This document shows positions 4,197 through 60,697 of a DNA stretch of 64,000 nucleotides, piece after piece. The stretch is from Haliclystus octoradiatus (Eukaryota > Cnidaria > Staurozoa > Stauromedusae > Haliclystidae): contig OU744452.1 of assembly GCA_916610825.1 (NCBI GenBank), forward strand, positions 12,318,110 through 12,382,109, in the 5' to 3' direction. Below the pieces are notes generated by a model. It had not been told where the DNA came from. It saw only the letters and a program-made list of their open reading frames with translations, and searched no databases. Numbering within the stretch: position 1 is the stretch's first letter; each line of letters starts with the position of its first letter. Both the position numbers and the translations under genes were made by a program.

Positions 4197-4482
4197 TATT
4201 TAAAAAATGCACTTCATTGCATTTCTTAAGGTCTCTTTGGATTCTAAGATGCTCATTTGCAATTGACGGCAATAGAAATCAAATTATTAGCATTGGTGGG
4301 ATTTCATCAACAATACTTGGACAGCAAGACCCGTGGTGGCAAGTTGATCTTGGAAAATCCCACAAACTGACAAATGTAATGATTTATAATCGAGGTGATT
4401 GTTGTCACGAACGTCTCCACTTATTCACAATTAAAGCACAAGATTTTCCAATGCCACAAGAAACACAGCTGGAAAAGCAAAT
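4197..4482 (+). CDS. F-type lectin domain, exon of lectin gene 1
   Basis: This exon encodes most of an F-type lectin (fucolectin/tachylectin-4 type) domain. Seen directly: CSFAIDG, then DPWWQVDLG, then VMIYNRGDCCHERLHLF. The RGDCCHER segment fits the R-x-D-x4-R part of the known family fucose-binding motif, including the vicinal cysteine pair; the upstream histidine expected 25 residues before that arginine is a leucine here. A consensus donor (GTAAGT) follows at 4483, leaving phase 2, which joins in frame to the exon at 17057. The acceptor before 4197 gives phase 1, the same as the matching exon of gene 2 at 33654, which is why I prefer it to the AGs near 4230 and 4248. The first about 20 residues fit the family poorly. 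PAN and signal-peptide exons were not found upstream; they may lie left of the window, or gene 1 may be decaying. Confidence 0.78.
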
Positions 4483-4857
4483 GTAAGTACCGAATATTGA
4501 ATAGCTGTTTAATAGTAAAACATGTGTCTGTTCGCTTGTAAACGTTTCTCAGAACCTGTTTAATAATTATAGAATGCCATCTCTTTGGACTATAAAAAGT
4601 AATTTCTGCTACATTGATGATTCCTCTACAATTTTCAAAAATCGTTTCAAAAGATACTTTAATACTAACTGCACTAGATGTAATTCCATATTGTTATGTT
4701 TGCAACTTATCAACAATTCCAGAAACTCAAGTATGAGAATACTATATTTCACTTCAGCCACTCTTAAGTCAATTCAACTGATATATACCTGTATGCTATT
4801 ATAATAATAATAATAATAATCACAAATATTGAATTTTATTATTATTATTATTATTTT

Positions 4858-6096
4858 CATGATGGTATATGCGATAAAAAAACACACAATAATTGGCGCA
4901 ACAGTTTCGATTTAATCTAAAATCATCTTCAGGCAATGTGAAAAGAGAGAGTTAAAAAGTTACATGAATATTTATACAAAAATCTAATTGATTTGTCTAT
5001 TGAATTTATCGGAACGGTATTATACTTTTTAACAATGGCAAACATTAATTACAGGAGAGATATTTTAGCACAAGAACTAATTACGAATATACGATACAAA
5101 CACGGTGAAATAACAGTTACAATCAAAAATAGTTTAACAGCGGCAAAATGCTCTTTGGTATTGTTCTTCCATTTTCTGTATTTCTTCTGGTCGTTGTTTA
5201 ATATATTGCCGACCTGAGTGGTCGACATGACAGTATCGCGCATGTCACACAAGATAACAACAGTTAGATTTAGCGTAACTATGAATATGGAACAGTAATA
5301 GTTTAGAACAAATTGACAAAAAGAAAAACTAAGTACGGATATACTATAAGACAGATACAATGAAATAATTATTACAACCAAAAACAAATAATCCAAAATC
5401 CATTCATCAATGGCAAAATGCTCTATCAGATTGATTACCAACTTTCTGTATTTCCTCTGGTCGTTGTTGAAAAAATTGCCGACAACGACCAGAGGAAATA
5501 CAGAAAGTTGGTAATCAATCTGATAGAACATTTTGCCATTGATGAATGGATTTTGGATTATTTGTTTTTGGTTGTAATAATTATTTCATTGTATCTGTCT
5601 TATAGTATATCCGTACTTAGTTTTTCTTTTTGTCAATTTGTTCTAAACTAAACTATTCTGTTCCATATTCATATTTACGCTAAATCTAACTGTTGTTATC
5701 TTGTGTGACATGCGCGATACTGTCATGTCGACCACTCAGGTCGGCAATATATTAAACAACGACCAGAAGAAATACAGAAAATGGAAGAACAATACCAAAG
5801 AGCATTTTGCCGCTGTTAAACTATTTTTGATTGTAACTGTTATTTCACCGTGTTTGTATCGTATATTCGTAATTAGTTCTTGTGCTAAAATATCTCTCCT
5901 GTAATTATTGTTTGCCATTGTTAAAAAGTATAATACCGTTCCGATAAATTCAATAGACAAATCAATTAGATTTTTATATAAATATTCATGTAACTTTTTA
6001 ACTCTCTCTTTTCACATTGCCTGAAGATGATTTTAGATTAAATCGAAACTGTTGCGCCAATTATTGTGTGTCTTTTTTATCGCATATACCATCATG
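4858..6096. repeat. 1.24-kb near-perfect palindrome (foldback)
   Basis: The left arm (4858-5467) is the reverse complement of the right arm (5482-6096), with only about 14 bases between them and a handful of mismatches and small indels. Outer ends read CATGATGGTATATGCGAT on the left and its complement on the right. Near the outer end of each arm lies a CTGAAGA-hairpin-GAAAC motif (6021-6049 +, 4904-4932 -) like the one at the 3' end of the neighbouring PLE copies. Each arm also contains two related direct-repeat units. Short (ATT)n tracts abut the left end and the long (TTA)n tract follows the right end. Best reading: two 5'-truncated PLE-family 3' ends joined head to head. No protein of known function is encoded. 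Confidence 0.85.
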
Positions 6097-6125
6097 AAAT
6101 TCATGTCAAGTAAACTTTTACGAAG

Positions 6126-6938
6126 ATTATTATTATTATTATTATTATTATTATTATTATTATTATTATTATTATTATTATTATTATTATTATTATTATT
6201 ATTATTATTATTATTATTATTATTATTATTATTATTATTATTATTATTATTATTATTATTATTATTATTATTATTATTATTATTATTATTATTATTATTA
6301 TTATTATTATTATTATTATTATTATTATTATTATTATTATTATTATTATTATTATTATTATTATTATTATTAGTATTATTATTATTATTATTATTATTAT
6401 TATTATTATTATTATTATTTTTATTATTATTATTATTATTATTATTATTATTATTATTATTATTATTATTATTATTATTATTATTATTATTATTATTATT
6501 ATTATTATTATTATTATTATTATTATTATTATTATTATTATTATTATTATTATTATTATTATTATTATTATTATTATTATTATTATTATTATTATTATTA
6601 TTATTATTATTATTATTATTATTATTATTATTATTATTATTATTATTATTATTATTATTATTATTATTATTATTATTATTATTATTATTATTATTATTAT
6701 TATTATTATTATTATTATTATTATTATTATTATTATTATTATTATTATTATTATTATTATTATTATTATTATTATTATTATTATTATTATTATTATTATT
6801 ATTATTATTATTATTATTATTATTATTATTATTATTATTATTATTATTTATTATTATTATTATTATTATTATTATTATTATTATTATTATTATTATTATT
6901 ATTATTATTATTATTATTATTATTATAATAATAATAAT
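6126..6938. repeat. (TTA)n microsatellite, about 0.8 kb
   Basis: Nearly uninterrupted TTA/ATT trinucleotide tract with very few variants (a TTAGTA near 6370, a TTTTTA near 6419 and a phase slip near 6848). It directly abuts the 3' end of the minus-strand PLE copy at 6939. Long poly-Leu, poly-Ile and poly-Asn reading frames here are artefacts of the repeat. Confidence 0.97.
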
Positions 6939-58603: not shown

Positions 58604-58885
58604 AATTTGAGTAGCATCTGTTCAATAAATTTTAATTAAATAGCTATTTAAAATAATATTCCTGTCCTCATCAATTTTTTATTGTGAGTAAGTGCTCTTG
58701 GATGGTTAGCAAAGAGATAATCTCTCTACATTGATGTATTTCCTTGAATGTGTAAGTTTTGAAATATTTTATTACTTGTTTCAATAAGTTGTTATTGCTA
58801 AGCCCTGTTTCAAGTGGTCTTGTTGCAGTGTTATCTCAGAGCTATTACTTTCTTGTTGCATCGAGATGAAGTGAAAATAGAGGGA
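58604..58885. repeat. Right direct repeat flanking the minisatellite
   Basis: Diverged copy of 56706-57023, same orientation. Between the array end and this repeat (about 58346-58603) is unique sequence with one more pair of GAATATTCGTC-like words in inverted orientation. Confidence 0.82.
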
Positions 58886-59867
58886 CCAAGGAGAAGTAAC
58901 CGAAGTGAAATAGTCGAGTTTGATAGAATTATTTGCTGAATATTTCATTCTCGTTCAATGTAGGAGAAAAATCGTAATGTAGCTACCAATCATTATCGAT
59001 TATAGTAGTGAGGATATAGAAAAGCTGACTCAAAGTTCACGAGTTTAGTCCATTTCAATTCAATAACTTAATTTCAGTGTCAATGTTTTTAGCCTTACAA
59101 AACTAATTGAGGACATCAGCTATAATATTTAAAGTAACAAATTTATATAATATATATATATAACTTAGAAGAAGATTTCAAATTGTCAAAAGTGTTAATT
59201 TAAAAGTGTTCCGTTACTCTGAGTTTCATAAGAACGCTCTTCAGGCGGTTTATTCGAAGTTTTTGTAAGCATGACGTATACACAACTTCCATATTGATCA
59301 TAATTTGGAATTCGGATCTATGTTTGGGTAAAAATATGTAACAACCATTTCAATTTCGAGTATTCCGATTTCGTTGCTCTGTCAAACATCGACATCTATA
59401 CAGACGAACTTCCAGCGGTCCTCCAGATGGTTTTCTTATGTTTTAATTTCTATCATTTACATTGTTGATAAATTATGAAATTCTGAAGTTTGATAAATTG
59501 GTAATTACTTTCCATATGAATAAAGAAATGAAGTATTTGAAGATCAAGTAAATCTGAAAGTGATTCATAATTATTTTCACTATGAATTAACAAAAGGAAG
59601 ATTTCACGATCAAGAAAATGTGCTGTTCTACATCATTTTTATGCAGAATTTCTTTGACATAAAGTTATTTCGCCTTTTCGCAAGAAGATTTTGATTTATT
59701 TACATCATCCATTGCCAGCCGCTAAGCTATCATTACAACCCTAATCTAACAGGTCATTACTTATTCCTTGTTATATATGGGTGTGAAGTAATGAACCAGA
59801 ATAAGACGATGTGGTTATTGATAACCATGTGAAACCATTACAGAAACGAATCCTTCGTCGTCGAATA
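58886..59867. other. Upstream region of lectin gene 3, distal
   Basis: No gene recognised. AT-rich. Confidence 0.4.
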
Positions 59868-60080
59868 GGATCAAATCATAAAAATTGAAAATCAAAATTT
59901 TTACCTTAAGTTGTTGTACTAAGTGAACTAACTATTTTGCCAAGATTTTTTTCGATAAACGGATTATACATAAAGTAAAAAACGCATAAAGTATTTTTTG
60001 AGAAATAAGCAAAGTAGTCACGGCACTTAGTACAACAACTTAGTTAAAAATTTAGATTTTTGATTTTTTATGATATGACC
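59868..60080. mobile_element. 213-bp foldback MITE
   Basis: Arms of about 55-58 bp: left GGATCAAATCATAAAAATTG...AAGTTGTTGTACTAAGTG and right its imperfect complement ending ATGATATGACC. The inner 19 bases (AGTTGTTGTACTAAGTG with neighbours) are perfectly complementary. It lies about 300 bases before the start codon of lectin gene 3, so it could sit in or near its promoter. Confidence 0.75.
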
Positions 60081-60388
60081 TTAATGGCTTCAAACTATTG
60101 AGTTGATGTACATCAGAATCAATTGTTTATGTAAAAGAGATTGTTTCAGTAGAAGTAACTATTATAGGTAACAAGTTGAATTAAGGAAAAACCGTGTGCT
60201 TAAAAATATTGTTATTGAAATGTGTTCAGGGTTTTGATAACAGGCTTTAGATTGAAAATAGCCAAGACACTCAACATAACATTCACAATCAATATAAATA
60301 TGTAAGTAGTATATGTGCAAGGTTTTCTATGACTATTAGCTGTTTTCCATTTGTCTTTTCTTTAGTACCAATACATATTGTATAGAGT

Positions 60389-60697
60389 ATGCACCATTTT
60401 ACCTCTTTGTGGACTCCTATTGTGCTATTAATTGGAATACTAAATCCTATAAATGGAATCAATATCCATCAAATTGAAGTTGAATTCAACCAGAATGCAA
60501 TATTCAGTTCTCGTCGTGCATATTACGGGCTTTCTAGAGTACAGTGCAGTCTAAAGTGTGCGACATTAAAGAAGGAATGCCAGTACATTCTGAGATCAAA
60601 GCCAGATGAAAATGACAAAGGTATCTGTGAAATAGCAAAGGGTCGTGCAATGGAAACTATCCCCCTTCAACATGAACACATAAAGTGGGACATAACA
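60389..60697 (+). CDS. Lectin gene 3, exon 1: signal peptide + PAN domain
   Basis: The ATG opens a hydrophobic leader (IVLLIGILNPINGINI; predicted cleavage near residue 23). Residues about 40-100 form a PAN/apple-like domain with C53-x3-C57-x6-C64 and C80, close to the C-x3-C-x5-C spacing of gene 2. The GTAAGT donor at 60698 leaves phase 0. Length (309 bases, 103 codons) and phase equal exon 1 of gene 2, supporting paralogy. A lectin exon would be expected downstream but is not seen before the window ends; the following 3.3 kb contain MITEs consistent with an intron. Confidence 0.75.

Follow-up and report, generated by a model that had tools for sequence, protein, structure and literature searches.

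Do the leader and lectin exons that follow one another on a contig of the stauromedusan Haliclystus octoradiatus belong to joint genes, and what kind of proteins would such genes encode? The question is raised by a 64,000-nucleotide stretch of contig C8, referred to as the window (C8:12318110-12382109; the genome totals 261.9 Mb over 33 contigs), for which a preliminary description had proposed three secreted paralogues joining a PAN domain to an F-type lectin domain. Comparison of the exons with the rest of the genome suggests, with a probability of about 0.7, that genes 1 and 2 belong to a large family, expanded in this lineage, whose probably secreted proteins would serve recognition or adhesion and bind varied ligands. 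F-type lectins are fucose-binding proteins of defence and fertilisation; here, the domain has expanded to about 150 exons within a single genome, and the canonical fucose triad is missing from nearly all those read.

Exon layout and predicted gene plan

The proposed plan would comprise a leader exon encoding a signal peptide and a PAN-like domain, a very short linker, and an F-type lectin domain spread over two exons. In the copies read, each lectin domain is indeed divided by an intron into exon A (first half) and exon B (second half). The exons found in the window, all on the + strand, are the following:

4197..4482 (+), gene 1 lectin exon A, phase 1 in and phase 2 out, matching PF22633, together with exon B, at 2.2e-14
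17057..17201 (+), gene 1 lectin exon B, ending in a stop
21521..21829 (+), gene 2 leader exon, 309 nt from the ATG, with a signal-like hydrophobic stretch and a putative PAN-like domain, phase 0 out
31544..31565 (+), gene 2 linker exon (candidate), 22 nt, phase 0 to 1
33654..33951 (+), gene 2 lectin exon A, phase 1 in and phase 2 out
44986..45127 (+), gene 2 lectin exon B, ending in a stop
60389..60697 (+), gene 3 leader exon, from a different class, 309 nt from the ATG, phase 0 out, only possibly part of a lectin gene

The outer limits of the preliminary description, 4197 and 60697, are exact exon edges (the first base of the gene 1 lectin and the last base of the gene 3 leader), and the phases and the 309-nt leaders that it reported for genes 2 and 3 were recovered. 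Its three same-strand paralogues are real as exons, but only gene 2 is complete, gene 1 being represented by its lectin and gene 3 by its leader. When joined, the four exons of gene 2 give an open frame of 256 residues. The same four-exon plan is present within 3.7 kb in a relative at C8:17.88 Mb (L067; exons of 309, 37, 277 and 145 nt), which is open over 255 residues. The leader nearest to gene 1 lies outside the window, at C8:12313077, and exon A of this gene lacks the first codons common to other copies, so that a different acceptor would be needed.

Since the leader leaves in phase 0 and the lectin enters in phase 1, the two cannot be joined directly, and in gene 2 the gap would be closed by the 22-nt linker. 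This candidate exon is identical at 17 of 22 bases between gene 2 and its relative on C11 (L066), the flanks agreeing at 17 and 19 of 40 positions. Two strict linker candidates were found in the gene 2 intron (shuffle mean 0.46), of which just the second has a counterpart in the C11 relative. An acceptor-like AG is located just upstream of the ATG in the leaders examined, and it is therefore possible that leaders follow a non-coding first exon or are trans-spliced.

An F-type fold with a variable sugar site

The lectin domain of genes 1, 2 and L067 can be firmly assigned to the F-type class by its sequence, as the preliminary description had predicted from motifs. Indeed, the joined proteins matched PF22633 above the cut-off in all three cases (E 1.3e-10 for gene 2, 1.8e-8 for L067 and 2.2e-14 for gene 1), and the gene 2 lectin also matched the structures of striped bass FBP32 (3cqo, E 5.9e-21) and eel AAA (1k12, 2.1e-10).

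The sugar site was surveyed in 53 distinct exon A peptides (from 63 matches) by means of motif anchors, with the numbering of PMC5712786, where the fucose motif is given, in the portion of the text available, as H-X24-R-X-D-X4-(R/K). R79 is kept in 52 of the 53 peptides, D81 in 43, R86 in 17 and the contiguous cysteines in 8; a histidine lies at most one residue from position 52 in four of them, and 41 carry the cation motif h2-DG-x, searched for as a loose pattern. The gene 2 site retains H, R79 and D81, with Y at position 86, and the lectins of genes 1 and 3 retain R79, D81, CC and R86, but not H. Thus, sugar-contact residues vary widely among copies. Because the fucose motif fails as a rule, the term F-type fold is preferred here to fucose lectin, and fucose binding would not be expected in most copies.

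Family size and ordered arrays

The family extends far beyond the three genes first proposed. Exons of gene 2 used as queries matched the genome at least 134 times for exon A, 104 times for exon B and 71 times for the leader, 62 of the 134 A exons being located on C8, and at least 149 matches to PF22633 were obtained, 147 of them over the cut-off (150 of 184 candidates scored). When both leader classes described below are considered, the next exon is A after 60 of 85 leaders and B after 98 of 134 A exons. The corresponding maxima were 35 and 46 in 500 label shuffles, and 35 and 53 in 500 strand randomisations, and reading the order in reverse gave 3 and 26. Separated by class, a leader directly precedes exon A in 59 of 71 cases for the gene 2 class and in 1 of 14 for the gene 3 class, in agreement, for the former, with the earlier proposal that PAN-like leaders are joined to F-type lectins in local arrays. 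A total of 51 leader-A-B triples were counted, gene 3 among them, with a median span of 12.3 kb.

A nearby stop ends 39 of the 46 distinct B exons read. The other seven all belong to an array at C8:15.25-15.30 Mb, where six have a terminal phase-1 donor compatible with the following exon A and one has an altered donor. According to the order of matches, ten A-B pairs stand there behind one leader, which suggests a leader with as many as ten tandem lectin domains behind it. Alternative A exons in the manner of Dscam were rejected for this locus, since the alternation of A and B and the phase-1 donors fit tandem domains better. Another arrangement was found at C8:18.90-19.06 Mb, where a unit composed of a leader, lectin Y and lectin X is repeated, with a stop in each lectin; no leader was found before lectin X in the 3.6 kb read ahead of one of these.

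Two classes of leader exon

The PAN assignment of the preliminary description holds in part. Taken singly, the gene 2 leader matched MANEC (E 0.0055) and PAN_1 (E 0.0084), and PAN_1 was matched by 10 of 11 leaders of its class at E up to 1, the best at 4e-4. These values suggest, weakly and below the Pfam cut-offs, a PAN-like domain. A match of the leader profile to plasma kallikrein (5.7e-4) was discarded, as it derived from a mixed alignment containing two sequences of the gene 3 class and disappeared after cleaning. Similarly, in-frame stops in leader matches were dismissed as signs of decay, since in the copies read they lie beyond the donor, in the intron.

For the gene 3 leader the PAN assignment was lost: its support came from the same mixed alignment and vanished once the analysis was repeated without gene-3-class sequences. 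No match was found for this leader in Pfam or PDB, and no kinship was detected with the gene-2-class profile (E 0.11, probability 0.5%); an apparent profile kinship between the classes (probability 97.5%) was circular, two sequences being common to both alignments. The gene 3 leader opens with a signal-like stretch, and its length and end phase are those of the gene 2 leader. Among the 14 genome matches of its class, a lectin exon is directly next in one, or in three if other leaders are ignored; in the remaining 11, no lectin exon comes next. The next lectin exons after the gene 3 leader lie outside the window (C8:12400000-12400294 and from C8:12402893), on the + strand 21 kb downstream, and join in frame over 149 residues. 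Leaders of this class also precede two further lectins, those of genes 0 and 1, that group in one clade with the gene 3 lectin; in both of these genes, a leader of the gene 2 class sits between the gene-3-class leader and the lectin.

Leader-class exons with no adjoining lectin exon were also observed at C10:3656073-3673067 and at other sites on C10 and C11. It is possible that these lone leaders constitute separate families of small secreted proteins.

Apparent leader exchange between lectin genes

One leader class is present on C8 in nine copies that are 85-100% identical and share their 5' flanking DNA, more distant copies diverging at breaks in the intron downstream. With leaders and lectins paired by genome position, the proportion of synonymous differences (pS) of the lectins was more than three times that of the leaders in 23 of 36 pairs, and the proportion of nonsynonymous differences (pN) of the shared leader was low (0.00-0.07). 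The lectins behind seven of the nine leaders fall into three supported clades in a tree of 43 lectins. Forcing them into one clade cost 142.75 log-likelihood units and was rejected by the approximately unbiased (AU) test, and forcing together only the lectins of copies 20.055 and 19.398 cost 122.98 units (p-AU 2.6e-6). Conversely, the lectins of 19.398 and 18.859 are close to each other (exon A 67%; both within one supported clade), whereas their leaders are 33-36% identical. Because near-identical copies precede lectins of separate clades, leaders appear to have spread between genes by duplication or conversion, two mechanisms that are indistinguishable here. Nevertheless, leader and lectin distances still correlate across 17 loci paired by adjacency (r 0.42, reached by 6 of 5000 permutations), suggesting an exchange superimposed on joint descent. 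An earlier coefficient of 0.69, obtained by pairing genes 0, 1 and 3 with gene-3-class leaders, was superseded by the adjacency pairing.

These data also bring to mind, tentatively, a mix-and-match recognition system, in which leader cassettes would move between loci and, through duplication, conversion or alternative splicing, become linked to divergent lectin tails. Behind this proposal are the nine near-identical leaders, which precede at least four lectin classes, the sister lectins with unlike leaders, and the arrangement at C8:18.9-19.05 Mb, where one leader stands ahead of two lectins with separate stops. If this leader were spliced to either tail, alternative receptors would be made from shared parts. 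A lectin coupled to a leader of separate history would offer a natural series for how a fold gains new ligands, and the family allows one to ask whether leader exchange builds a recognition repertoire.

Sequence evolution of the lectins

The pooled pN/pS of A exons ranged from 0.31 to 0.91 and was below 1 in all eight groups, with values of 0.31-0.45 in three of them and of 0.81 and 0.91 in two, so that pervasive positive selection was rejected. Putative loops, whose limits were set by motif, had a higher pN/pS than the scaffold (0.72 vs 0.38; Fisher p 0.004, no more than indicative given these limits and the non-independence of the pairs). The loop value exceeded 1 in two groups (1.14 and 1.23), and the contrast was reversed in the smallest group (C6, one pair; loops 0.73, scaffold 0.88). 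This pattern fits loop diversification or relaxed constraint, positive selection being unproven. The diversifying character attributed to the family by the preliminary description is thus supported in part, by the variable contact residues, the less constrained loops and the presence of one leader class before several lectin clades, but not by the pooled ratios.

Distances among A exons agree with those among B exons (r 0.82, reached by 0 of 2000 permutations), and the nearest neighbour is the same in 22 of 43 cases. Recombination of the oyster type between A and B was therefore rejected as a rule; in copy 18.901, B is nearer than A.

Interpretation and rival explanations

As members of a secreted recognition or adhesion family, these proteins would use the F-type jelly roll as a binding pocket whose contact residues, varying from copy to copy, may accommodate different glycans or other ligands, and the PAN-like module would contact a partner or aid assembly. 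Growth of the family could have occurred by tandem duplication, change in the lectin loops, and duplication or conversion of leader exons before different lectins. The sequence itself establishes the class of the lectin, the exon order, the open frames, the size of the family and the mismatch of leaders and lectins; splicing, secretion, the binding of ligands, the function of the PAN-like module and the biological role are inferred from it. An immune, a gamete or an adhesive role might be suggested, the three being inseparable on present evidence. Several observations weigh against this interpretation. The canonical His-Arg-Arg triad was found in just one of the 53 distinct exon A peptides, and sugar binding by these lectins is not assured. 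PAN matches remain below the Pfam cut-offs (PAN_1 on the gene 2 leader, 16.4 bits vs 21.4), no PAN protein was found in PDB with the cleaned gene-2-class profile, and the model of this class (11 sequences) was poor, with a predicted local distance difference test (pLDDT) value of 53.8 and a helix-strand-strand-helix-strand-strand order whose first helix is the signal-like stretch. A convincing linker was found in three of the seven loci searched (gene 2, C11 and L067), that of L071 being doubtful, and none was found in the other three, nor a convincing one for genes 1 and 3. In addition, exon A carries an in-frame stop in at least two of the copies read, namely L066 (near 7506), the nearest relative of gene 2, and L094, the copy at C8 19.029 Mb; and a pN/pS below 1 requires no diversifying selection.

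Rather than serving the recognition of others, the family could encode adhesives or matrix components secreted by gland or epidermal cells, its expansion reflecting product dose and surface chemistry. Tandem binding domains, a secreted plan and pN/pS values in the purifying range would suit this explanation, which is rather unlikely, however, in that a bulk adhesive would not need strong divergence at sugar-contact positions. A function in gamete recognition, with single or tandem F-type domains binding egg-coat glycans as in oyster bindin, is improbable. The lectin domain is split here and ten A-B pairs stand behind one leader at one locus, and oyster bindin likewise has a mid-domain intron and tandem domains, and some of its copies lack the basic triad, according to the available portion of PMC5712786. 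Nevertheless, this same portion describes few bindin genes, each single-copy and with one to five domains, as opposed to the 134 or more A exons counted here, and mentions no PAN-like leader for it.

Mostly neutral birth and death, with many copies decaying and the leader mismatch as a by-product of segmental duplication and gene conversion, has a small chance of being correct. It would account for the in-frame stops in two A exons, the lost donor in the tandem array, the altered acceptor of gene 1 and the pN/pS of 0.81 and 0.91 in two groups; on the other hand, the low ratios of three of the eight groups together with the low pN of the shared leader indicate constraint, and the frames of gene 2 and L067 are open throughout. 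That the leader and the lectin exons belong to separate genes lying side by side is very unlikely as a general explanation, although no lectin is next for 11 of 14 gene-3-class and 11 of 71 gene-2-class leaders (other leaders ignored), distances reach tens of kilobases, and leader and lectin histories differ. For the gene 2 class, order and strand far exceed the shuffles, a conserved linker exon reconciles the phases, and the joined frames are open in two genes. For the gene 3 leader, by contrast, the separate-gene explanation may well be right.

Repeats and mobile-element remnants in the window

A long open frame was observed in the gene 1 intron (9344-11509, +), with a shorter related copy upstream (7561-8907, +) that includes a 200-base N gap (7645-7844). 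By eye, the long frame looks Penelope-like, but Pfam gave no match. Fragments of non-LTR (long terminal repeat) retrotransposons lie at 48224-51724 (+) and 15069-15356 (-), with matches to Exo_endo_phos (1.7e-5) and to RVT_1 (down to 3.7e-6, under the RVT_1 cut-off), and the first intron of gene 2 contains an RT_RNaseH fragment (1.4e-19) of an LTR-type element (26057-26434, -). Two long ATT/TTA microsatellites and an 85-bp tandem array occupy 6126-6926, 11832-12205 and 57027-58340.

Comparison with known systems

The domain resembles FBP32 (3cqo) and eel AAA (1k12) over almost its full length, including the WW and R-x-D core, but differs from them in the PAN-like leader, the intron-split domain and the presence of the canonical triad in only one of 53 A exons. 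No paper was found that describes the pairing of a PAN domain with an F-type lectin or fucolectin, although the search reached few subscription papers and absence from print is unproven. The available portion of PMC5712786 lists C-type lectin, pentraxin, complement control, transmembrane and FA58C regions as partners of eukaryotic F-type lectins, and PAN or apple is not named there; in that of PMC3269628, PAN is named beside rhamnose-binding lectins. A PAN-like module and a lectin domain in one secreted protein are also combined in the nematode proteins described in the accessible part of PMC5297725, where the lectin is C-type and not F-type as here. The mid-domain intron, the tandem domains and the variation of the triad recall oyster bindin, as far as the same portion of PMC5712786 describes it. 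Nevertheless, the likeness is one of plan and not of membership: the family of H. octoradiatus is much larger, carries a PAN-like leader, reaches up to ten domains at one locus, and has A and B exons of largely shared history.

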